From positions 1 through 21,267 of IMG/VR virus record IMGVR_UViG_3300034066_001932: a DNA stretch of 21,267 bases; one strand, written 5' to 3'. This document shows positions 6,881-20,701 of this stretch, piece after piece. A program made the translations under genes and the position numbers. The notes below the pieces were generated by a model. The model was not told the origin of the DNA, did no database searches, and worked only from the letters and a program-made list of their open reading frames with translations. This DNA is from a virus. The first letter of the stretch is position 1. The number at the start of each line of letters is the position of its first letter.

Positions 6881-6908
6881 TTGCAAGGTGTCAAAACCTT
6901 GCTATACT
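6881..6908 (+). promoter_or_regulatory. Promoter with inverted repeat in its spacer (operator candidate)
   Basis: TTGCAA (6881-6886), 16-base spacer, TATACT (6903-6908), with an extended -10 TGC. The spacer holds an inverted repeat GCAAGG (6883-6888) / CCTTGC (6897-6902), so a dimeric repressor bound there would cover both promoter boxes. Confidence 0.68.
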
Positions 6909-6913
6909 GGCGA

Positions 6914-6947
6914 TGCCGGTGCTTGATCCGGTGCTTAGAAAGGATAG
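6914..6947 (+). promoter_or_regulatory. Leader with weak hairpin and extended ribosome site
   Basis: A six-pair hairpin TGCCGG / CCGGTG (6914-6919, 6928-6933; two G-U pairs) precedes TAGAAAGGATAG (6936-6947). Copies of this ribosome-site element also lie at 7113, 7677, 7926, 8798, 10133 and 10558, a variant at 11155, and on the minus strand at 5051-5060. AGAAAGGA pairs with the extended 3' end of 16S rRNA in bacteria ending ...UCCUUUCU. Confidence 0.6.
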
Positions 6948-8648: not shown

Positions 8649-8813
8649 TAATTGGAATAATCATAATTTTGGTTTTGGTGTGGTGGTTTTTGGATAATTA
8701 TGGATAACCCCTAGAAAATAAATTGTAAAAACGTAAAGAAAACGTAAAAATGCACTACAATTCAAGCACTGGCACAAATAGCCGGTTTTTATCAACTCAG
8801 AAAGGATAGCGAA
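8649..8813. other. AT-rich intergenic region
   Basis: 165 bases between the cysteine-rich gene and the DUF932 gene. It has two GGATAA copies ten bases apart (8692-8697, 8702-8707), a direct repeat ACGTAAA (8731 and 8743), and the leader of the next gene. The GGATAA copies resemble partial DnaA boxes on the minus strand but are not consensus. Confidence 0.5.
8756..8809 (+). promoter_or_regulatory. Promoter -10, leader hairpin and ribosome site of the DUF932 gene
   Basis: TACAAT at 8756-8761 is a plausible -10. It is followed by a six-pair hairpin ACTGGC (8768-8773), loop ACAAATA, GCCGGT (8781-8786; one U-G pair) and CAGAAAGGATAG (8798-8809) before the ATG at 8814. The order is the same as in the leaders at 10514 and 11110. 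Confidence 0.5.
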
Positions 8814-9770
8814 ATGGCTCACATGATCGACACAACTACAGGCACCGCGGCAATTGCATACAGCGGCCAAGCCCCTTGGCATAAGTTAGGGCAACAGCTG
8901 ACAGCGGGCGCCACAATTGAACAATGGACACAACAGGCCGGCTTAGCTTATGACGTATTAGAAAGCCCTGTTTTATTTAACACACCGGCCACCAGTGCCC
9001 CTCAAGCTTGGCCTGATAGAAAGGTTTTACATAGAAGCGACACGGGCGCGCCCTTGGCCGTAGTGTCACAGGGTTATAACGTGGTGCAGCCCTCCGAAGT
9101 TATGGGGTTTTTTAGTAAGTTGGTAGACCTTGGCGGGTTTACCATGGAGACAGCCGGAGCCCTCAGTTATGGCCGGAGGGTTTGGGCACTAGCCAAAGTG
9201 AGCGAGGGGGCCGAAGTAGTCGAGGGTGATACAGTGCGCCCTTATGTTTTGCTCGGCACGTCATACGACGGGACAATGGCCACCATCGCAAAATTTACAA
9301 GTGTTCGCGTAGTGTGCAACAACACAATTACGGCAGCGGTAAATAACAGCGAATCACAAATTAGGGTTTTGCATAGCGAGCGATTCGACGCGGACAATGT
9401 CCGGCTTCAACTTGGCATTGTCGCGAATCAATGGGAGCGCTTTTTAGTGCAATCCCGCAAGTTGGCGGGCGAATCAATGACAGCAGAAGAGGCCGATTCT
9501 TTTGTCACTGAATTATTGAAGCCTTACCACACTGGCAAAATTGCCATTAATGAATCGCGCGCATTCAAGCGAATCATTGAATTATTTAATGGGCGCGCCA
9601 TTGGATCGGATATTAAGGGTGTAGCCGGCACGCGATGGGCGGCCCTGAATGCTGTTACTGAATTAGTTGATCACGAGCGAGGCCGATCAGACAATACCCG
9701 CATTGAATCAGCTTGGTTTGGTACGGGTGCGGCCCTTAAAAATAGGGCTTTAGAATTGCTGTCCGCTTAA
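8814..9770 (+). CDS. DUF932 family protein (phage/plasmid-like)
   Basis: A 318-residue protein starting MAHMIDTTTGTAAIAYSGQA. The opening AYSGQAPWHKLGQQL is the hallmark of the DUF932 / phage-plasmid-like family (TIGR03299), and GYNVVQPSEVMGFFSKLVDL, LLGTSYDGTMATIAKFTSVR and VVCNNTITAAV follow in the expected order. Length (about 320) is normal for the family. These proteins occur on phages and plasmids, sometimes linked to recombination or replication; no activity is proven. The ATG follows AGAAAGGATAGCGAA. Confidence 0.9.
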   Translation: MAHMIDTTTGTAAIAYSGQAPWHKLGQQLTAGATIEQWTQQAGLAYDVLESPVLFNTPATSAPQAWPDRKVLHRSDTGAPLAVVSQGYNVVQPSEVMGFFSKLVDLGGFTMETAGALSYGRRVWALAKVSEGAEVVEGDTVRPYVLLGTSYDGTMATIAKFTSVRVVCNNTITAAVNNSESQIRVLHSERFDADNVRLQLGIVANQWERFLVQSRKLAGESMTAEEADSFVTELLKPYHTGKIAINESRAFKRIIELFNGRAIGSDIKGVAGTRWAALNAVTELVDHERGRSDNTRIESAWFGTGAALKNRALELLSA

Positions 9771-9785
9771 CCAGTGGAATTAGCC

Positions 9786-9840
9786 GACCGATCGGTCAGG
9801 TTTTCGCTCTTAAAACGGGCGTTTTCCCGACCGATCGGTT
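9786..9840. repeat. Paired ACCGATCGGT palindromes (operator candidates)
   Basis: GACCGATCGGTC (9786-9797, a perfect 12-base palindrome) and GACCGATCGGTT (9829-9840, core ACCGATCGGT) lie 43 bases apart, about four helical turns. Between them is a third palindrome AAAACG-GG-CGTTTT (9812-9825). The layout suits a dimeric DNA-binding protein, or a cruciform or weak terminator. Confidence 0.6.
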
Positions 9841-9906
9841 GGTTAATGAAAACCCTATAAACTAGGCCCCCGATCCCTCGCCCTCGCTGTCCTAAACGTG
9901 GCTTTT

Positions 9907-10005: not shown

Positions 10006-10070
10006 CGGCTGCCTGTTTTTTTCCTTGATTTTTTCCCTTGATAGGTGGTGGCGGGGGTGGGTGGGCCCGC
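10006..10070 (+). repeat. Direct-repeat block, copy 1
   Basis: CGGCTGCCTG plus seven T (10006-10022) is identical to 11550-11566, and the 27-base G-rich segment at 10044-10070 (starts GGTGGTGGCGGGGG, ends TGGGCCCGC) is identical to 11685-11711. A shared ATTTTTTCCCT precedes the G-rich part in both copies. The repeats bracket the genes at 10149-11492. Confidence 0.85.
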
Positions 10071-10092: not shown

Positions 10093-10120
10093 TTGCAAGT
10101 GGCTGGCGCAGTGCTATAAT
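10093..10120 (+). promoter_or_regulatory. Promoter of the gene at 10149
   Basis: TTGCAA (10093-10098), 16-base spacer, TATAAT (10115-10120) with an extended -10 TGC, the same design as at 6881-6908. Transcription starts near 10127, just before the ribosome element TAGAAAGGATAG (10133-10144). Confidence 0.78.
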
Positions 10121-10148: not shown

Positions 10149-10508
10149 ATGCTTGATCCAGTACTGCGGGCCAAAGCCCTTGAACTATTGCCCGACAATC
10201 ATGAAAATGACATTGGCTTTTTGCTAGGCCTTGGCCGTGACTTTGACGCTATGCTTGAGGGCCGGCAATATTGCCGTGACATTTACTTAAATGAATTTGG
10301 CTATTCGGTGCATGATTTTTCGCCCAAAGATTTGGCCATCATGTGGGACGGGGATGACGGGTGGGGGATCTTTGCCGACAATGGCTTGGAATGGATTGAC
10401 GAGACCGGCAATAATCTTGTCTTTGCAACAGAGGCCGAGGCCGCTGAATATTTAGACGAAGTAATAGCAAAAGAATTACAAAAAGAAGTTGAAAAGATCA
10501 GTAAATAA
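10149..10508 (+). CDS. Hypothetical acidic phage protein
   Basis: A 119-residue protein starting MLDPVLRAKALELLPDNHEN, with its own promoter and the conserved ribosome element directly upstream. It is strongly acidic, with a central DGDDGWGIFADNGLEWIDE. No membrane segment and no motif I recognise. It ends in a Lys/Glu helix (AKELQKEVEKISK) whose codons also hold a possible -35 box of the next promoter. Confidence 0.75.
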   Translation: MLDPVLRAKALELLPDNHENDIGFLLGLGRDFDAMLEGRQYCRDIYLNEFGYSVHDFSPKDLAIMWDGDDGWGIFADNGLEWIDETGNNLVFATEAEAAEYLDEVIAKELQKEVEKISK

Positions 10509-10513
10509 CGTGC

Positions 10514-10569
10514 TATAATTCACCCACTGGATCAGCGGATCTAGTGAACTTAAACCCTAGAAAGGATAG
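10514..10569 (+). promoter_or_regulatory. Promoter, 5' mRNA hairpin and ribosome site (leader cassette A)
   Basis: Extended -10 TGCTATAAT (TATAAT at 10514-10519; TTGAAA at 10489 is 19 bases away, so -35 is weak). The transcript begins near a 9-pair hairpin CACTGGATC (10525-10533), loop AGCG, GATCTAGTG (10538-10546; one G-U pair). Then AACTTAAACCCTAGAAAGGATAG leads to the ATG at 10574. The same order recurs at 11110-11166 with different stem bases. Confidence 0.75.
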
Positions 10570-10573
10570 AGAA

Positions 10574-11101
10574 ATGACAAGCCCAGTAACCCCGTTTCGC
10601 AATGGAATGTTTGGCTCACGTGCAACTGTTCAGGAAGCATTGGACTATTGTGAAAGCCTGATCAATACTTTGGCTCAGACCGATCAAGTTGGCATCCGTG
10701 TTGGTTTAGGTGTTTTGCTAAACACCATTGATAATGTAGTGACCCAGTCACAGGGTCCGAAGCCGATCAACGATCAGGCTGATTTACTTATCCAGTTGAG
10801 CGGCATGTATGACAAGCTTGTCCGCGATGTGGTTGGCGAAGTAGAAGCCAAGATCATGACCAACGATAAGATTGACGAATCAATTGAAGACTGGATGAAG
10901 CACAATCTGCGCGACAAGGTCATGGACATGCTGTCTATGGATGATGTCGATGACCAGATCTCCAACTGGATGTCGAACAACTTTGACCTTGATGACTACA
11001 ATGTTGACGGGGCAATTGAATCGTGGATGGACAACAACATAGACGATAAAGTTTATGATGCGGTCAACAGTATTTCATTCACTGTTGAAATTGGCCGATA
11101 A
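10574..11101 (+). CDS. Acidic protein with repeated I-E/S-x-WM-x-x-N motif
   Basis: A 175-residue protein starting MTSPVTPFRNGMFGS. The ATG at 10574 follows the conserved ribosome element; the frame's first ATG at 10544 lies upstream of it. The first ~90 residues are helical. The C-terminal half carries three related units: IEDWMKHN (104-111), ISNWMSNN (129-136) and IESWMDNN (148-155), each flanked by acidic stretches such as SMDDVDDQ. The repeats could bind a metal or a partner; no function is known. It ends at 11101, and its last codons overlap the next leader's spacer. Confidence 0.75.
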   Translation: MTSPVTPFRNGMFGSRATVQEALDYCESLINTLAQTDQVGIRVGLGVLLNTIDNVVTQSQGPKPINDQADLLIQLSGMYDKLVRDVVGEVEAKIMTNDKIDESIEDWMKHNLRDKVMDMLSMDDVDDQISNWMSNNFDLDDYNVDGAIESWMDNNIDDKVYDAVNSISFTVEIGR

Positions 11102-11109
11102 TATCGTGT

Positions 11110-11166
11110 TATAATTCAAGCTCTAGACCAGCCGGTCTAGAGCAACTTAAACCCTAGAAAGAAGAG
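11110..11166 (+). promoter_or_regulatory. Promoter, 5' mRNA hairpin and ribosome site (leader cassette B)
   Basis: Extended -10 TGTTATAAT (TATAAT 11110-11115). A perfect 10-pair hairpin follows: GCTCTAGACC (11120-11129), loop AGCC, GGTCTAGAGC (11134-11143). Then AACTTAAACCCTAGAAAGAAGAG and the ATG at 11175. This is a diverged copy of the leader at 10514: the flanks are nearly identical while the stem bases differ and still pair. Confidence 0.75.
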
Positions 11167-11174
11167 AGAACATC

Positions 11175-11492
11175 ATGACTAAAGTCATTACATTAGACGG
11201 CCAACGTTATGCATTACCTGAGGGAATGCCATCCAAAGACGTTCAGGCTTTGGCCGGTTTCTTAATCACACTCACTAAGATCGACAGTGAGTGGTCATGG
11301 TCTTCAGGCGATGAGACCAACTGGTACTACCCAACAACTGGTGCAAGCATCAGTGTAGAAGACATGGTCCTAACCACACGGGCCGAAGCCAAATCCAAAG
11401 CGGCCACGGCCCGTGCTGATTATGAAGCTAAGAAATTAGCGAAAGAAAAGGCAGAGGCCGGTGATCTAGTTGGCCTACACGTGACCCAGTAA
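11175..11492 (+). CDS. Hypothetical phage protein
   Basis: A 105-residue protein starting MTKVITLDGQRYALPEGMPS. The N-terminal 55 residues are mixed alpha/beta; residues 72-100 form a charged Ala/Lys/Glu helix (AEAKSKAATARADYEAKKLA). The ribosome site is the variant AGAAAGAAGAG with a longer gap to the ATG than in sister leaders. Downstream are a 24-base palindrome and a strong terminator, so this gene is a separate unit or the last one of the block. Function unknown. Confidence 0.78.
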   Translation: MTKVITLDGQRYALPEGMPSKDVQALAGFLITLTKIDSEWSWSSGDETNWYYPTTGASISVEDMVLTTRAEAKSKAATARADYEAKKLAKEKAEAGDLVGLHVTQ

Positions 11493-11885: not shown

Positions 11886-11910
11886 TATGCAAATTTCAAA
11901 ACGTGGCCCG

Positions 11911-11926
11911 TGTTCCACGTGAAACA
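11911..11926. promoter_or_regulatory. parS-like centromere site 1
   Basis: TGTTCCACGTGAAACA matches the consensus of the bacterial chromosomal partition site, TGTTNCACGTGAAACA, at every fixed position. It lies between the late promoter and the first ATG of the large terminase. It would be a loading site for a ParB/Spo0J clamp; no parB gene is in this window. Confidence 0.75.
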
Positions 11927-11930
11927 AAAC

Positions 11931-13403
11931 ATGCCCAATAATTCAAGCACCCCCGACATCCAAGAAGAACAGCTTCGCCTAGAGCTCCGCCTCAAACTCT
12001 TGGAGGCCCAAGAACGTGCAACTTCAGACTTCCTGTCCTTCTGTCAGTACGTGTGGCCGGAAATGTTGGTCGGGGAGCATCACAAACGTATTGCCAAAGC
12101 TTTGGACAGAGTCATTTCTGGCGAGTGCAAACGCCTGATGATCGCGATGCCGCCCCGTCATGGTAAGTCACAGATGGGCAGTTATCTGTTCCCAGCGTAT
12201 TTGATGGGCAAGATGCCTGACACCAAGCTGATCGTGGGATCGCACACCGCGGAACTTGCGCAACGTTTCGGTAGGATGATCCGTAATCTGGTGGATGACG
12301 AGAGATATAAGGAGTTGTTCCCAAAGATGGCTCTGTCAGTTGACAGTAAGGCTGCCGGACGGTGGAACACGGCCCAAGGAGGTGAAGCCTTCTTTATCGG
12401 TAAGGGCGGCGCGATGACTGGTCGTGGCGGCAATGTTGTTGTGCTGGACGATATTTTGGACGAGCAGGATGCTGTGTCTGAAACGGCGATGGAGAATACG
12501 TGGGAGTGGTACACGTCGGGTCCTCGGCAGCGATTGCAGCCGGGTGGTGCAATCATTGTGATTAACACGCGATGGAAAACAGACGATCTTTCGGGGCGCT
12601 TGCTCAAGCAGCAGGGTTATTTGAAGTCAGACCAGTGGGAGATCTTGGAGTTCCCCGCCATTCTGCCGTCCGGAAAGCCCCTGTGGCCAGATTACTGGAG
12701 CCTCGACGAGTTGGAGAAGGTCAAAGTCAGCATTGGCCTAAAGAAATGGAACGCCCAGTGGCAGCAGCAGCCGACGAATGATGAGGGTGCGATCCTCAAA
12801 CGCAACTGGTGGAGGAAGTGGAAGTACGATGAGCCTCCTGTTTGTGAGTATCTAATTCAGGTATACGACACGGCGTACTCTAAGAAAGAGACTGCTGACT
12901 TTTCTGTTATCTCGACGTGGGGTGTGTTCTATCCTGATGCTGATTCTGGCGCCAATTTGATGCTGTTAAACGTGCGAAAGGGTCGGTGGGACTTCCCTGA
13001 GCTAAAGCGGATGGCAAAGGATGAGTATCAGTATTGGAAACCTGACAATGTTTTGATTGAAGCGAAGGCGACTGGTACTCCGCTGCAGCAGGAACTGCGT
13101 CGTCTGGGCATTCCTGTCACGATGTTTTCGCCGGGCGGAAGAAGGTCTGGTCAGGATAAAGTGTCCCGCGCCAATGCTGTTGCTCCTTTGCTAGAGTCCG
13201 GCATGATCTGGTATCCTGAAGGGAAAGAGTGGGCCGAGGACCTTGTAGAGGAATGCGCGGCTTTTCCTAATGGGAACAATGATGACCAAGTGGATACTGC
13301 GGTGATGGCTTGGACGAGATTTCGTGCGGGCAATTTTATTGCGTTGGACACGGACGAGGTGGATGATACGGAGCCCAATACATCTCCTGTTGAGTATTAT
13401 TGA
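11931..13403 (+). CDS. terL: Terminase large subunit
   Basis: A 490-residue packaging motor and nuclease. ATPase: Walker A MPPRHGKS (73-80), Walker B NVVVLDDI (168-175), coupling motif INTRW (211-215). Nuclease (RNase H fold): VYDTAYSKKETADFS (311-325), VLIEAKATGTPL (374-385) and DDQVDTAVMAW (451-461) supply the acidic residues. The C-terminal part is of the TIGR01630 (psiM2 ORF9-like) type. It cuts concatemeric DNA and drives it through the portal. The start is uncertain: ATG 11931 is chosen, but an in-frame GTG at 11910 would add VFHVKQN and put the parS-like site in the coding region; neither start has a clear ribosome site. Confidence 0.95.
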   Translation: MPNNSSTPDIQEEQLRLELRLKLLEAQERATSDFLSFCQYVWPEMLVGEHHKRIAKALDRVISGECKRLMIAMPPRHGKSQMGSYLFPAYLMGKMPDTKLIVGSHTAELAQRFGRMIRNLVDDERYKELFPKMALSVDSKAAGRWNTAQGGEAFFIGKGGAMTGRGGNVVVLDDILDEQDAVSETAMENTWEWYTSGPRQRLQPGGAIIVINTRWKTDDLSGRLLKQQGYLKSDQWEILEFPAILPSGKPLWPDYWSLDELEKVKVSIGLKKWNAQWQQQPTNDEGAILKRNWWRKWKYDEPPVCEYLIQVYDTAYSKKETADFSVISTWGVFYPDADSGANLMLLNVRKGRWDFPELKRMAKDEYQYWKPDNVLIEAKATGTPLQQELRRLGIPVTMFSPGGRRSGQDKVSRANAVAPLLESGMIWYPEGKEWAEDLVEECAAFPNGNNDDQVDTAVMAWTRFRAGNFIALDTDEVDDTEPNTSPVEYY

Positions 13404-13449: not shown

Positions 13450-16400
13450 ATGGCCGCTCAAAGCAATGCCCAACAGACATTTGAAGAGTTAGTTGCTGCT
13501 GTCAAGCAAGCGGAGAGCCGTGGCAAGCGGTACGCGGCAGATGGTAAGACTTTGACCACCAGCCCCAAGGGTGCTTTGGGTGAAATGCAGGTGATGCCTA
13601 AGACGATCAAGGATCCCGGCTTTGGTGTTATCCCTGCAAAAGACGCATCTCCTGACGAAATTGCAAGGGTTGGCGTGGATTATTTGCAGGCCATGACGCA
13701 AAAGTATGGGGATACTGAGAAGGCTTTGATTGCGTATAACTGGGGCCCGGGGTCCACGGACAAATGGATTGCTTCTGGTGCTGATCCAAAGAAGTTGCCG
13801 GATGAGACGAGGACGTATGTTCAGCGCGTCAAGGGTTTTCTTGGCAAGGATGTTTCACGTGAAACAGTGGCGAAAAAAGAGCGGGAGCCTTTGCCCGCGT
13901 CCCTGCCTCCAATGGCTGAAGCCCCTCAGACTACTCCTGCAAAAGCAACCACTGTAGCAAAGTTGGACATGGCAAATATGCCGGCAAGCTATAAAGCGGC
14001 TTTTGCTTTGGCTGCCTTGGCTGATGCGCAGGACGAAGAGGAAGATCGGGCGTTTAACGAGAACAAGCAGACGGAGACGGAAACATTTTTTGCCAGTTAC
14101 AAGCCTGTCAATCATTTAGCATCGCTTGATTTGAGCGTGGAGCCGATAGCCATGAAGGATGGCGGGGATGTCAGTGCTGAGACGGAGCGCAAGGACGAGC
14201 CTTTGTTTGATGCAGCGTCGAGAACTTTTGTAGACGTTATGACTGGTCGGCGCACACCTATTACTGAAAAAGACTTTACGGCCAAGGAGCAGTTGGCCAT
14301 GCTGGATGCGGTCAAGAGAAGTCAGGCGCGAGGTGGTAAGGGCCGTGTAGATTATCAGGATTACCCTGATGCCAGCACGGTCGGCCCGGGCTACGTGGAC
14401 ATTAGGAATACGCTGGGTGGTTTTCAGTACAAGCAAAACCCTGATGGCTCCACTGTGATTACAGACAGGTACGATTTCCACGGCCCGAGGGTCGCGGAGT
14501 ACGAGAAGATGGGCACAGGCGAGAAGCTTGTCAAGTCTGCCAAGAATGCTTTGACGGAGTTTGTAACCAAGGGTTTTAGCCCCCGTGATTTGGCTGGGGA
14601 ATTGGGTAGGGCGTACATAGGCAGCAAGGGCCCGGAAGTAAATATCCGTATTCCTGTTAATCGTGCTGACGGCAGTCCTGAAGAGGGCGAGCAGGTGAAG
14701 TTTTCGACGCAGGCGCAGCCTGCTCGTGGAGCCGCGCCCCCGCCTCCTGCTACGCGCAGTGCCAAGGAGCTTGATGCGTATATAAAGGCGATGAATCCGG
14801 GCGCAAGGATTTCGTATTTCCCTGAAGGGGGCGGTACATTTGGGTATGTGAACTCAGATTCGCCAAACAGCTTAAACATTCAAAGAAGTTTAAGCCCACA
14901 AAGGGATGAAGAGACAAAGCTGCATGAGTTGGAGCACAGTCTTACGTTCAGGGCAGGGGATCCGCTGGGTCGTCCAAAGGTAAAAGCTGTGGATAACAAC
15001 TACCAAGCGTATTACATGCTGGGTAGTTGGCAGCCTATGTCGCAGTTCACAAAAAACATGGTGGAAAACAAGGAAAAGCTAGAGAAATTCTTTGGCCGTC
15101 CTTTGAACAATGCTTACTTCCAGCCAGAAACTTTGCAATCTGTGAAAAAGCAGCAGGGCGACACATCGGCATTGTTTGATGAGCAGATGGCAACCTTGTC
15201 TGCGCTTGAGCAAATCACGGGCAAGTCCTTGACGCGTGATCCGGAGATGAAGAAGTTGTTTCCAAGCGTCAAAGTGATGTCTGTTTATGATGCGTTGACG
15301 GGTCCTCGTCAGACGCGCATGGATCCACGTGATTTGCCGCCCAGCACGCCTCAGCCGGCATACACCTACAGGGACAATCCTGTTACGCAGTTCTTGCACA
15401 AAACGTTTTTGAACGATAATTTTTACCCCTATCAGAAGCCTGTCAGGCGTGCAAACGGCGGCGATGCAGAACCGACAGCGGAAGAGATAGCAGCGGCAAG
15501 TACTCCTGCTTTTATTGCGCAGAAGTCGGGTATTGGACGCAAGCAAGGCAACATATCTAAGGCGTTGAAGTCTGGTGAAGCTCTGACGGAAACAGCCAAG
15601 GGTTTGACGATGCTGCCGCAGAACATTGTGGGTGCGCCGGTTGATTTGGCGACGATGGCGATGCGTCCGTTTGGCTACAACGTTGAAAAGCCATTCATGG
15701 GCAGTGATTATCTGAAGGAAAAATCACGGTCCGCGGGCCTTGCATTCAAGCCCTCTGACGATCCAACGTTGGCCGGCTTCTACGGTGCTGGTGATTTAGC
15801 CAGTAATCTGGTCAATCCTGCAGGTGCTACGCGCACGGGTGTAAAAGCTGCGGAGAAGACGGGTGAAGCAGCCAAGATGTTGGCGCGTGATTTCCAAGGC
15901 TACAACCAGCAGTTAGAAGTTCCCGGTGCTTCGTATGCAATTCGCAATCGTGGCACACCATTTTTGGGTACGCCTCAACAAGTTAACTATCAAGGCAAAG
16001 TTACGCGTGAAGCGATGAGTGAGGCGGATGACTATGCAGACTGGTTGGCCCGTAATTTTGGCAGTGAGCCATCATTAAAAACATGGCTAAGGGACAAAGT
16101 AGGGGCATATCTGCGCCGTGACTTTGGAACTGAGAGCGACCAGATGGTTCAAGCTGCGGACCAAGGCAAGAAGCTGCACTTTATGTCGCCTAAGTTGACA
16201 GAGAATGTACCGCATCGGTTGGATAGAGACATTGGTTTTTCTCGGGAACTTGAAGGATTTCCAAAAAGCGGTTTTGCCAAAACACCACAGGGCCAAAAAG
16301 TAGAAGAAGTAATAGATTCCACGATTCATCCGCTTCAATTGCAGGATGTTAGTGCAACATACCAAGTGCCGCCAAGCATGAGGCAGTTTGTGGATACCAA

Positions 16401-17448
16401 TCCTGAGATGCGCGTAAGTCAAATGGGTCCTATTGACGAGAACCTGAAGTTGGATGAGTTGGCGCAGGCGATGGGCAAAATGTTTAAGGAAAAGGAATTT
16501 AAGGCGTATGGGGAAACTATTCCTATGCCTAAAGAGTACATTCTGACAGAAGACACTTTGAAGGGCTTGACTCCTGCACAAGCATCTAATCGCGTGGCCA
16601 ACAAAATGGAATGGGTAGAGAAGAAGCGCGCAGAGTTGGCAGGCGTTGCTATTTCCAAAGATCCACGGATCGTGAGCCACAGTTATGACAACGGTAGCAA
16701 GTGGATTAGCCCTGCGGACTTAGCTGACTATCCAAATCAAGCGGAGATGGTTAAAGACATTGGCTGTGCAGGTGGATGGTGCACGGATAAAGCTACTTAT
16801 GCCATGGACTATGGTTCTGGTGACAATCGCTTAAACATTTTGCTCGATAAAAAGTTTGAGCCACGTGTGCAACTTACAGTCCACCAACCAAGCGTAGGTA
16901 CGCGTGAGTTTATTTTAGCTTACCCTGATTTGCCTGCAATTGAAGCAATGACATTAGACAGGACACTTACAAAGCAACGGGCAGATGAAATGATTAGAGC
17001 AATGCCTGAGTACCAAGAGTTTGTAAAGAACAATCAAAATATAAAACAAATTACAGAGATCAAGGGCCAGTTTAACAACGCTGACTTGCGGGATTCCCCA
17101 TACCTCAAGCAGGTCCAAGATTTTGTAAAACGCCAAGGCCCTGAATTGAAAAGCGTAATCAACTTAGCCGGTATTAATATGGTTGATGCACGGAATGAAA
17201 TTGTACAAAAGGTTCTTGATAGACATGATTTAATTAACAAGTATAACCAAAGCTACATGGATAAACTTCTACAACTTAACGATAATTCTTTTTACGTAGA
17301 CGCGGGAGAGCTTTCGGGCTTACTTAAAAAAGCAGATGAATATACGCCGCCTAATGCAGCGCGAGCAATTCAGATGAATCTCTTTCAAACCAAGGCCACT
17401 GGGGGTATGATCGAGCGCCAGCCCAACGATAACCGCAGATATCTGTAA
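13450..17448 (+). CDS. Large multidomain virion-type protein: lytic transglycosylase plus HExxH region
   Basis: A 1332-residue protein. Residues 8-132 are a lysozyme-like transglycosylase: VKQAESRGKRY (catalytic Glu 22), SPKGALGEMQVMP (38-50), AYNWGPG (95-101), then TYVQRV. Long, low-complexity and disordered linkers follow. Residues 492-496 are HELEH in KLHELEHSLTFRAG, a zinc-protease HExxH signature. Residues ~615-760 contain hydrophobic helices (LTETAKGLTMLPQNIVGAPV). Around 1105-1145, GCAGGWCTDKATYAMDYGSG and NRLNILLD loosely resemble PcfJ-like segments. The end GGMIERQPNDNRRYL is typical of large phage internal proteins. Probably an ejected virion protein that opens the cell wall; placed between terminase and portal. 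Start ATG 13450 has AGGACC upstream. The second parS-like site is at codons 134-139. Confidence 0.85.
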   Translation: MAAQSNAQQTFEELVAAVKQAESRGKRYAADGKTLTTSPKGALGEMQVMPKTIKDPGFGVIPAKDASPDEIARVGVDYLQAMTQKYGDTEKALIAYNWGPGSTDKWIASGADPKKLPDETRTYVQRVKGFLGKDVSRETVAKKEREPLPASLPPMAEAPQTTPAKATTVAKLDMANMPASYKAAFALAALADAQDEEEDRAFNENKQTETETFFASYKPVNHLASLDLSVEPIAMKDGGDVSAETERKDEPLFDAASRTFVDVMTGRRTPITEKDFTAKEQLAMLDAVKRSQARGGKGRVDYQDYPDASTVGPGYVDIRNTLGGFQYKQNPDGSTVITDRYDFHGPRVAEYEKMGTGEKLVKSAKNALTEFVTKGFSPRDLAGELGRAYIGSKGPEVNIRIPVNRADGSPEEGEQVKFSTQAQPARGAAPPPPATRSAKELDAYIKAMNPGARISYFPEGGGTFGYVNSDSPNSLNIQRSLSPQRDEETKLHELEHSLTFRAGDPLGRPKVKAVDNNYQAYYMLGSWQPMSQFTKNMVENKEKLEKFFGRPLNNAYFQPETLQSVKKQQGDTSALFDEQMATLSALEQITGKSLTRDPEMKKLFPSVKVMSVYDALTGPRQTRMDPRDLPPSTPQPAYTYRDNPVTQFLHKTFLNDNFYPYQKPVRRANGGDAEPTAEEIAAASTPAFIAQKSGIGRKQGNISKALKSGEALTETAKGLTMLPQNIVGAPVDLATMAMRPFGYNVEKPFMGSDYLKEKSRSAGLAFKPSDDPTLAGFYGAGDLASNLVNPAGATRTGVKAAEKTGEAAKMLARDFQGYNQQLEVPGASYAIRNRGTPFLGTPQQVNYQGKVTREAMSEADDYADWLARNFGSEPSLKTWLRDKVGAYLRRDFGTESDQMVQAADQGKKLHFMSPKLTENVPHRLDRDIGFSRELEGFPKSGFAKTPQGQKVEEVIDSTIHPLQLQDVSATYQVPPSMRQFVDTNPEMRVSQMGPIDENLKLDELAQAMGKMFKEKEFKAYGETIPMPKEYILTEDTLKGLTPAQASNRVANKMEWVEKKRAELAGVAISKDPRIVSHSYDNGSKWISPADLADYPNQAEMVKDIGCAGGWCTDKATYAMDYGSGDNRLNILLDKKFEPRVQLTVHQPSVGTREFILAYPDLPAIEAMTLDRTLTKQRADEMIRAMPEYQEFVKNNQNIKQITEIKGQFNNADLRDSPYLKQVQDFVKRQGPELKSVINLAGINMVDARNEIVQKVLDRHDLINKYNQSYMDKLLQLNDNSFYVDAGELSGLLKKADEYTPPNAARAIQMNLFQTKATGGMIERQPNDNRRYL
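13851..13866. promoter_or_regulatory. parS-like centromere site 2
   Basis: TGTTTCACGTGAAACA, the perfectly palindromic form of the bacterial parS consensus. It lies inside the large multidomain gene, read as VSRET (codons 135-139) in the linker just after the transglycosylase domain, 1940 bases from site 1. Chromosomal parS sites also often lie inside genes. Confidence 0.78.
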
Positions 17449-17457
17449 GGACATAAC

Positions 17458-19863
17458 ATGCCAATTGAAAAGAACATGACAATCGACGACTTGCCAAGTG
17501 GCGATGTCGCCGTGGAGATGGAAGACGAGCTGCCCTCAGAGATTGACATTGAGTTTGATACAGAAACAGGCGGTGTACTGGTCAACATTGGTGCAGAGGA
17601 AGACGATATTGCCTATGACAGCAACTTAGCCGAGGTCATTGAGCCAGACGTCTTGCAGCTTATCTCTTCTGACTTGATGTCGTTGTTTGATGCTGACAAA
17701 TCTTCACGCAAGGAGTGGGAAGAGCAGTACAGCAAGGGCATGAAGATGCTGGGCTTCACGTTTGAAGAGCGCACCAAGCCGTTTAAGGGCGCGTGCGGCG
17801 TGCAGCACCCACTTTTGACAGAGAGTATTGTTCAGTTCCAGTCACAAGCACTGAAGGAATTGATGCCAGCGGGCGGTCCTGTGCGCACACAGGTGTTGGG
17901 CAAAGAGACACGTGAGAAGTTGATGCAGGCAGACCGCGTCAAGGACTTCATGAACTACCAAATCACCACGGTGATGGAAGAGTACACACCTGACTTTGAT
18001 CAGTTGTTGTTTTATGTTGGCTTTGGTGGCTCTGCATTTAAGAAGGTGTACTTTGACGAGACCAAGGGCCGCATGGTGAGCGCTTTGGTGCTGCCTGATA
18101 ACTTGTACATCCCCTACACGGGTTCTTCTGTGATGAGCGAGTGCCAGCGCATCACGCACCGCGTTCCGATGTCCACGAACGATTACCGCAAAGCAGTGAT
18201 CCGTGGTCAGTATTTGGATACAGCGCAGATGACGACTGCGGCTGAGACAGGCCAGAGCATTATCAAGAAGGAAACAGACCGCACAACGGGTGTTGATCCT
18301 ACTGGTGTGGAAGAAGAGATCTGTTTGTTGGAGTTCTTGGTTGATCTAGACATCAGGGGCTTTGAGCACAAGGATGAGGACGGCGAAGAGACAGGGATTA
18401 AGCTGCCATACATCGTCACGATTGACGAGATCTCGCAGTCTGTTGTGGGTGTGCGTCGCAACTGGAAAGAAGGCGATCCTTTGTTTGCGCGCAAGCAGTA
18501 CTACGTGCATTATTTGTTGGTGCAGGGCCCCGGTGCTTATGGCTTGGGCTTTTTGCATTTGGTGGGGGGCCTTACGAAGACTGCTACTTCTGCATTGCAG
18601 CAATTGGTGGATGCAGGAACGCTTGCTAACTTGCCAGCAGGCTTTAAGGCCAAGGGTGCGCGCATTGCGAACGACGATACACCGCTACAGCCCGGTGAGT
18701 TCAGAGATATGGACGCTGGTGGTGCGGAATTGTCTGCGTCGCTCTTGCCATTGCCATACAAGGAGCCTAGCCAAACGCTGTTTGCGCTGCTTGGTTTCTG
18801 CGTAGATGCTGGCCGCCGTTTGGCAAGCATTACGGACATGCAAGTTGGTGACAGCAACCAGAATGCTGCTGTGGGAACGACGATTGCGTTGCTTGAAAAA
18901 GGCAGTGCGGTGATGTCTTCAATTCACAAGCGTTTGCACTACAGCCAGCGCATGGAATTTCAGTTGTTAGCCAAAGGTTTCTCGGAGTTCTTGCCTGACG
19001 AATATCCATACGATGTTCCCGGTGAGAGCCGCAGGATTAAGAAGCGTGACTTTGATGACCGCATCGATGTTTTGCCTGTCTCTGACCCCAACATCTTCTC
19101 TGTTGCCCAGCGTATCACGATGGCGCAGACGCAATTGCAATTGGCGCAGAGCGCACCGCAGATGCACAACATGTATGAGGCCTACCGCCGCATGTATGAA
19201 GCCATTGGTGTGCGTGACATTGATCAGATTTTGAACACACAGAACGTGGACAAGCCAAAGGATCCTGCAAGCGAGAACGCACAGGCTTTGGACGGCTCAC
19301 CCCTCAAAGCTTTTGCTGGTCAGCAGCACGATGCGCACATCATGGCGCACATTATGTTTGGCATGAGCCCGATGATGCAGTCGATGCCCAATGTGGCAAT
19401 CAATTTGCAGAAGCACATCTTTGAGCACATCCGTTTAAAGGCGGAAGAAGAGGTGGAAGCCGAGTTGTTCCGTCAATACGGCACTGATCCTGAGGGCTTG
19501 GTGTCTGCTTTGCAGCGTGAAGCGATGGTTGCAATGAAGGTTGCGCAGGGTTATCAGGAAGTTAAGAAGCTTCAGACGGATATGTCGGGCCCACAGGAAG
19601 ATCCTTTGGTCAAATTGAAGGAAAAAGAGCTTGAACAAGGCGCCCAACGCGACCAAGCCAAGGCTCAGATCGAGCAGGCGCGCTTGAATGTGGACCAACA
19701 GCGCTTGGGCCTTGATCAGCAGAAGGAACAATCTGATGTTCAGTTTGATCAAGCCCGTTTGGCACTGCAACAACAGGTCGCTGCGCAGAAAAATTCGCAA
19801 GATGCAATTAAAAATGCCCAACTAGGAGCAAGAAATGCAAGCCAAAGTAACAAAAACCGCTAA
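17458..19863 (+). CDS. Portal protein (P22 type)
   Basis: An 801-residue protein forming the dodecameric ring through which DNA enters and leaves the head. After an acidic N-terminus (DDLPSGDVAVEMEDELPSEI) come RKEWEEQYSKGMKMLGFTFE, FKGACGVQHPLLTESIVQF and FQSQALKELMPAGGPV, typical of the P22-like portal family, then LFYVGFGGSAFKKVYFD and LVGGLTKTATSALQQL. GDSNQNAAVGTTIALLEKGS fits the region that contacts neighbouring subunits. The last ~90 residues are a Gln/Glu/Lys-rich coiled coil (the P22 barrel region). Length is in the family range. AAGGACATAAC precedes the ATG; the gene starts 10 bases after the previous stop. Confidence 0.93.
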   Translation: MPIEKNMTIDDLPSGDVAVEMEDELPSEIDIEFDTETGGVLVNIGAEEDDIAYDSNLAEVIEPDVLQLISSDLMSLFDADKSSRKEWEEQYSKGMKMLGFTFEERTKPFKGACGVQHPLLTESIVQFQSQALKELMPAGGPVRTQVLGKETREKLMQADRVKDFMNYQITTVMEEYTPDFDQLLFYVGFGGSAFKKVYFDETKGRMVSALVLPDNLYIPYTGSSVMSECQRITHRVPMSTNDYRKAVIRGQYLDTAQMTTAAETGQSIIKKETDRTTGVDPTGVEEEICLLEFLVDLDIRGFEHKDEDGEETGIKLPYIVTIDEISQSVVGVRRNWKEGDPLFARKQYYVHYLLVQGPGAYGLGFLHLVGGLTKTATSALQQLVDAGTLANLPAGFKAKGARIANDDTPLQPGEFRDMDAGGAELSASLLPLPYKEPSQTLFALLGFCVDAGRRLASITDMQVGDSNQNAAVGTTIALLEKGSAVMSSIHKRLHYSQRMEFQLLAKGFSEFLPDEYPYDVPGESRRIKKRDFDDRIDVLPVSDPNIFSVAQRITMAQTQLQLAQSAPQMHNMYEAYRRMYEAIGVRDIDQILNTQNVDKPKDPASENAQALDGSPLKAFAGQQHDAHIMAHIMFGMSPMMQSMPNVAINLQKHIFEHIRLKAEEEVEAELFRQYGTDPEGLVSALQREAMVAMKVAQGYQEVKKLQTDMSGPQEDPLVKLKEKELEQGAQRDQAKAQIEQARLNVDQQRLGLDQQKEQSDVQFDQARLALQQQVAAQKNSQDAIKNAQLGARNASQSNKNR

Positions 19864-19982: not shown

Positions 19983-20044
19983 GTGCATAATATGCACGTA
20001 ACCTTCGGACAGGGGTCTATCTGTCTGCTTCATTGGAGTTATCC
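19983..20044 (+). promoter_or_regulatory. Palindrome and leader hairpin before the gene at 20045
   Basis: GTGCATA-A-TATGCAC (19983-19997) is a perfect inverted repeat that contains CATAAT, a possible -10. A hairpin GGACAG (20007-20012) / CTGTCT (20021-20026; one G-U pair) follows, then TTGGAG and the ATG. This repeats the order -10, hairpin, ribosome site seen at 8756, 10514 and 11110. The promoter activity is uncertain. Confidence 0.45.
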
Positions 20045-20230
20045 ATGCTTGAATTTGCAGAAAAAGTCATATTTGCCATTCGCAAGCTTGAAAACGAAAC
20101 TAAAGACTTCGTTAGCAGCGGCAATGTCAAATCGATGGAGCAGTACAAACATTTGATGGGCCGGTTAGAGGGTTATGCGTTTGTTCAGGAAGCCATACAG
20201 GATGTCTTGAGCAAGAACTCTGATCTTTAA
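20045..20230 (+). CDS. Small helical protein of the head gene cluster
   Basis: A 61-residue protein starting MLEFAEKVIFAIRKLENETK. ATG at 20045 has GGAG upstream; a longer frame from 20033 lacks this. It contains SMEQYKHLMGRLEGYAFVQE, a helix pattern ('SxExYxxLxGRxEGxxxxxxxI') found in small phage proteins beside portal and scaffold genes in many environmental phages. No enzyme motif. Role probably structural or as an assembly factor; uncertain. Confidence 0.8.
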   Translation: MLEFAEKVIFAIRKLENETKDFVSSGNVKSMEQYKHLMGRLEGYAFVQEAIQDVLSKNSDL

Positions 20231-20242
20231 AGGACCAAACAG

Positions 20243-20701
20243 ATGGAAATGACTGCATTAGAGAAGCGTTGGGCGGAGGCCGCGGTGGAAAAAGCTGCCG
20301 CTGAGGTCGCTGCTGCGGAGGCTGCTGCTGTAGAAGAAGCAGAAGAAGAGCAACGCATGGAAAACATCAGGGAACACCTTCCACAGCCGACAGGTTGGCG
20401 GATTGTTGTTTTGCCCTATAGAGGCGCTAAGAAAACCAAGGGCGGGATTGAACTTCCTGAGCAAGCCTTGGAACGACAGCAACTCACTACCACTTGCGCA
20501 TACGTTTTGGCCGTTGGCCCACTTGCTTACAAAGACACCGACAAGTTTCCGGACGGTCCTTGGTGTAAAGAAGGCGATTGGATCGTTTTTGGTCGTTACG
20601 CAGGCGCACGTATGGGCATTGATGGTGGAGAGATCCGCATTCTCAATGATGACGAGATTCTGGCCCGTGTTAAGGACCCAGAAGACATTCTGCACATGTA
20701 A
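20243..20701 (+). CDS. GroES-like co-chaperonin
   Basis: A 152-residue protein. Residues 8-45 are an Ala/Glu-rich helix. Residues 48-148 form the Cpn10/GroES fold: TGWRIVVLPYRG, a mobile loop KKTKGGIELPEQALERQQ with GGIEL (67-71) in place of the GroEL-binding GGIVL, AYVLAVGPLAYKDTDKFPDG, KEGDWIVFGRYAG (the DxVxF.KYaG strand) and IRILNDDEILARV. The protein would cap host GroEL and help fold head proteins, as T4 gp31 does. The N-terminal helix is an addition to the usual ~97-residue GroES. AGGACC precedes the ATG; an alternative ATG is at 20249. Confidence 0.88.
   Translation: MEMTALEKRWAEAAVEKAAAEVAAAEAAAVEEAEEEQRMENIREHLPQPTGWRIVVLPYRGAKKTKGGIELPEQALERQQLTTTCAYVLAVGPLAYKDTDKFPDGPWCKEGDWIVFGRYAGARMGIDGGEIRILNDDEILARVKDPEDILHM

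Follow-up and report, generated by a model that had tools for sequence, protein, structure and literature searches.

Two leaders of a 21,267-base virus record (the window) were found to carry, at the predicted 5′ end of the mRNA, a hairpin whose stem is maintained among relatives for its pairing and not for its letters. The hairpin probably works as RNA, and the explanation that we favor, with a probability of about 0.6, is a 5′-terminal mRNA-protecting stem-loop on host-read promoter units. Under this explanation leaders A and B would be transcribed by the host RNA polymerase from a start 7 nt after TATAAT, and each transcript would open with a stem of ~8 bp and a loop of 3-5 bases, followed by CAACC...AGAAAGGATAGAG, the ribosome site, in single-stranded form. 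The stem would keep the 5′ end out of reach of the pyrophosphohydrolase RppH and the 5′-end-dependent RNase E, or of their equivalents in the host, and so may prolong the survival of these short mRNAs with the ribosome site still open. Protection of the mRNA appears the most likely role and would be the most economical one, because a 5′ end must be single-stranded for RppH and RNase E to act on it (PMC3997798) and because ompA and T7 gene 10 have 5′ stem-loops that protect the mRNA whatever their sequence (PMC2254391).

The layout given in the original prediction, two leaders (10514-10569 and 11110-11166) each with TATAAT, a hairpin and a ribosome site, was confirmed, as were the stems it described (Table 1). 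Directly 3′ of both hairpins, at 10547 and 11144, the leaders share AACTTAAACCCTAGAAAG as an exact match, for which 0.03 matches were expected. Put in register, the A and B stems are homologous; two of the nine shared pairs are changed on both sides (A-U to U-A and U-A to C-G), one is changed on one side only (G-U to A-U) and six are identical, and the B stem has one outer pair more.

Table 1. Positions of leaders, hairpins and genes in the window.
Feature	Position	Strand	Remarks
Leader A -10, TATAAT	10514..10519	+	Extended -10, preceded by GTGC; position kept in A orthologues
Leader A hairpin	10525..10546	+	From fold and covariation; predicted +1 = A10526; stem CACTGGATC (10525-10533), loop AGCG (10534-10537), GATCTAGTG (10538-10546); 9 pairs, one being G-U
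Leader A unpaired spacer and ribosome site AACTTAAACCCTAGAAAGGATAGAGAA	10547..10573	+	
Leader B -10, TATAAT	11110..11115	+	
Leader B hairpin	11120..11143	+	From fold and covariation; predicted +1 ~11122; stem GCTCTAGACC (11120-11129), loop AGCC (11130-11133), GGTCTAGAGC (11134-11143); 10 perfect pairs
Leader B unpaired spacer and ribosome site AACTTAAACCCTAGAAAGAAGAG...	11144..11174	+	
Third leader, same layout	8756..8786	+	TACAAT, 6 nt, ACTGGC-ACAAATA-GCCGGT; precedes DUF932 gene
Short leader -10	10115..10120	+	Gene 10149-10508; internal contrast
DUF932 gene	8814-9770		Behind third leader
Gene A	10574..11101	+	175 aa; precedes terL
Gene B	11175..11492	+	105 aa; precedes terL
terL	11910-13403		
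Transglycosylase-bearing virion protein	13450-17448		
Portal protein	17458-19863		
GroES-like protein	20243-20701		

The phage family with these hairpin leaders is uncultivated and mostly lake-derived. Dozens of IMG/VR contigs encode a TerL matching that of the window at 79-100%; among named phages, TerL relatives are those of Phage DSL-LC04 from Dishui Lake (63%) and of 023Pt_psg01 and the Pelagibacter phages HTVC027P and HTVC023P (51-54%). A megablast of the window against phage records gave no match, and a host search by terL in GTDB genomes found no relative. The protein of gene A, which has orthologues in 30-odd IMG/VR contigs, matched no Pfam or PHROG family, and that of gene B matched no family above the curated cut-off.

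Leaders of A and B orthologues were collected by protein match, blind to hairpins. Unpaired stems in relatives were sought as the outcome contrary to the original prediction; the B leaders, however, were paired in 43/43 cases, all of them above the 95th percentile of dinucleotide shuffles, as were 81% of the 36 A leaders. Covariation was analysed in an ungapped alignment of 31 distinct stems from IMG/VR relatives, the rows of which were picked for even loop length (no pairing bias as such, with some pairing-based choice for A). Changes on both sides were present at 9/9 pairs, and 72 cells were changed on both sides, against 17.4 in shuffles. Base pairing was kept in 95.7% of cells and fell to 21-30% when the partners were slid by 1-3 columns. 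Structure rather than sequence was thus conserved.

An independent sample was drawn from 2.9 million viral contigs, in which sites were picked only by TATAAT, a gap of 25-45 and AGAAAGGATAGAG. A palindrome score of at least 7 was reached by 73% of the 85 distinct sites and by 1.6% of shuffles, and most of the sites lacking a palindrome resemble chance matches in unrelated contigs. Palindromes were scored against shuffles because an early control had been too lenient, any 6-bp hairpin being present in 40% of random windows. A search with a covariance model (R1) built with the leaders recovered A/B-type stems but no others, a restriction due to the model carrying sequence as well as structure. 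The hairpins of the window, which were themselves used to build R1, scored 29.9 bits (leader A, E 4.2e-6) and 38.2 bits (leader B, E 2e-8).

The position of the stem was examined in 104 distinct hairpins. The Watson-Crick fraction rose with the offset after TATAAT from 0.18 (offset 4) through 0.38 (5), 0.43 (6) and 0.67 (7) to 0.94 (8). A pyrimidine followed by A is the usual step at which transcription starts. Since offset 6 was C or T in 99/104 and offset 7 was A in 79/104, offset 7 was taken as the predicted +1, which places the stem within 0-2 nt of the predicted 5′ end; the mRNA is predicted to begin with 0-1 unpaired bases and then the hairpin. The outer edge of the stem stayed at offsets 7-8 while its center moved from 16 to 17 and to 18-20; in a small group of nine hairpins centered below 16 the edge was less sharp.

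The constancy of the outer edge bears on the possibility that the palindrome is a DNA operator, to which a dimeric repressor binds to block initiation, with the RNA hairpin as a by-product. LacI at lac O1 is such a case, its bound operator near +10 blocking initiation. The leader stems are near-perfect palindromes centered at ~+10 and may reach -2, as an operator would allow. Pairing was mildly raised at the predicted -1 and -2 (0.43 and 0.38, against ~0.25), and RNA alone is therefore insufficient unless starts vary. The outer edge tracks the predicted start and not the dyad center, however, whereas the edge of a fixed-width DNA site would shift with the center.

The two materials can also be told apart by their mismatches. 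A DNA palindrome should tolerate G-T and A-C equally on the sense strand, and a sense RNA only G-U. In a search that scored all mismatches alike, the stems near +1 showed G-U over A-C at 18:2 (p 0.0002), with 31:6 at a looser and 13:2 at a stricter cut-off; by kinship, the 18 G-U cases at the first cut-off come down to ~13 lineages by eye against 3 for A-C, and some of the excess could instead reflect a C-to-T strand bias of transcribed DNA. Palindromes in the -35/-10 spacer, used as a control, gave 4:3 and 9:7. The strand preference argues that the leader stems act as sense-strand RNA; a DNA operator would show none. Together, the covariation, the outer edge at the predicted +1/+2 and the tolerance of G-U but not of A-C bear out the prediction that a hairpin at the extreme 5′ end of the mRNA is under selection as an RNA structure.

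The control palindromes are the second point in favor of an operator. Many relatives (among them L139, L144, L221, L236 and L047) have a near-perfect palindrome in the -35/-10 spacer, abutting TATAAT, for example TTGACACGGGGCCAAAACCCCGTGTTATAAT or AGCGGACA-GAA-TGTCCGCT, which lies ~31-33 bp upstream of the leader dyad and resembles a DNA site. Since it has no G-U bias and several genomes have the same copy at their two promoters, the spacer palindrome looks like a DNA operator. The same genomes argue against extending that identity to the hairpin: in L139, L144, L221 and L236 the two spacer palindromes are identical and the two leader stems differ, although over all within-contig pairs the difference was mild (means of 0.69 against 0.62). 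We consider it unlikely that the leader palindrome itself is an operator. A palindrome in the -35/-10 spacer, as in the relatives, was also seen in the window at ~6884-6903. Some spacers are 19 bp long with a perfect TTGACA; MerR-type activation of these long spacers was rejected, no MerR_1 protein being present in 10 related records, of which several were fragments.

A module of two layers would accommodate both palindromes, the one in the spacer serving as a shared DNA operator and the one at +1 being read as RNA by a phage factor that selects these mRNAs for stability or translation. Such a promoter module would, if true, be a previously undescribed one; we regard it as quite doubtful. As a general approach, counting sense-strand G-U against A-C beside a DNA dyad 30 bp away offers a cheap discriminator between RNA hairpins and DNA operators at promoters.

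The original prediction had also proposed that the hairpin might control access to the ribosome site. This was not supported in either leader, because the hairpin is clear of the site and the motif AGAAAG was left mostly unpaired in the predicted fold (mean unpaired probability of 0.70 in A and 0.91 in B). The open ribosome site would also suit an insulator, a hairpin that keeps the ribosome site from being paired to the leader itself or to upstream sequence in read-through transcripts, and thus raises translation and not half-life. Read-through is likely in this stretch because every gene has its own promoter. However, the same genomes have short leaders that function with no hairpin, and an insulator has no need for placement at +1, so this reading is rather improbable. 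A terminator or attenuator was ruled out: no U-run directly follows the stems, which continue into ACAACC or AACTTAAACC.

The hairpin was present in 86% of 112 leaders of 27-46 nt and in 0/12 shorter ones. The window contains such a short leader at 10115, with a short gap from the -10 to the ribosome site and no hairpin. Upstream of this promoter, at ~10035-10070, lies a G-rich GGTGGTGGCGGGGGTGGGTGGGCCCGC that is nearly invariant among close relatives and could, by its sequence, form a G-quadruplex. Of three further places at which a similar order had been proposed (6914, 8768 and 20007), only 8768 held up, with its stem at +1; in the orthologous leader the letters vary and the pairing is kept. 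At 6914 the case was weak, the best stem being of 5 bp and absent from the predicted fold of the full leader, and the hairpin at 20007 proved to be of another kind. This different covarying hairpin (GGACAGGGGTCTATCTGTCT, 20007-20026, then a GCTTCATTGGAG ribosome site before the ATG at 20045) occurs at one site per genome, is conserved down to DSL-LC04 and has variants including GACAC/GTGTC and AAACAG/CTGTTT. The long non-coding stretch 3′ of the DUF932 gene contains a 22-nt inverted repeat around CCGACCGATCGGTC (9779-9847; 86% complementary, 25 nt apart).

Whole records (~51-62 kb) contained 2-4 strong sites, every one of them immediately 5′ of terL, against 0.5-1.2 per strand expected by chance; this number ruled out a genome-wide cassette. 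A scan of DSL-LC04 found no strong site, and a plausible hairpin was seen by eye before its DUF932-type gene. That just 2-4 promoters per genome carry the hairpin counts against an mRNA-protecting stem-loop. The same scarcity would fit an RNA recognition site for a phage protein or nuclease, acting in antitermination, RNase III-type processing or selective translation of the two genes, as would the frequency of AGCC, GGCC and AGCG loops closed by C-G. Over the family, however, the loop varies widely (CGG, GCGGT, GGGC, GGTC, ACAAATA), the letters of the stem are free, and no family in Rfam 15 matched the hairpin at the gathering score. A recognition site is accordingly the least probable of the readings considered here, and the mRNA-protecting stem-loop is preferred.

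Among known systems the mRNA-protecting stem-loop has its closest likeness in T7 gene 10 and ompA, which also have a 5′ stem of ~8 bp (8 bp in T7 gene 10), the letters of which are unimportant, and then a single-stranded leader and the ribosome site (PMC2254391). T7 gene 10 differs in having its own T7 RNA polymerase promoter, whereas the -10 here is of the sigma-70 type. The likeness is one of arrangement and implies no relation in sequence. The PeSL cassettes of T4-type phages likewise combine a promoter and a stem-loop in a small unit repeated between genes. They are termed promoter-terminator motifs in the title of a 2014 paper (cited in PMC5931544), and, going by that title, the present stem differs in having no U-run and in lying between a promoter and its own gene. 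Inverted repeats also make up the extended start-associated sequences (ESAS) of cluster K mycobacteriophages, which lie immediately 5′ of a conserved repeat at the ribosome site of a subset of genes; they are 17-bp repeats of conserved consensus, present in many copies per genome beside the 13-bp SAS (GGGATAGGAGCCC) (PMC3203893). Read against that description, the stems here have neither conserved 17-bp half-sites nor a 13-bp SAS, and are 8-10 bp long, free in sequence and present in 2-4 strong copies. The hairpin is filed as a new family of 5′-terminal mRNA stem-loops that is known in kind. A few model mRNAs are known to have a 5′ end protected by a hairpin. The present phage family has retained such a hairpin at orthologous genes across large divergence, with the letters drifting, and so offers compensatory mutants made by nature in which the requirements of a 5′ hairpin can be tested.
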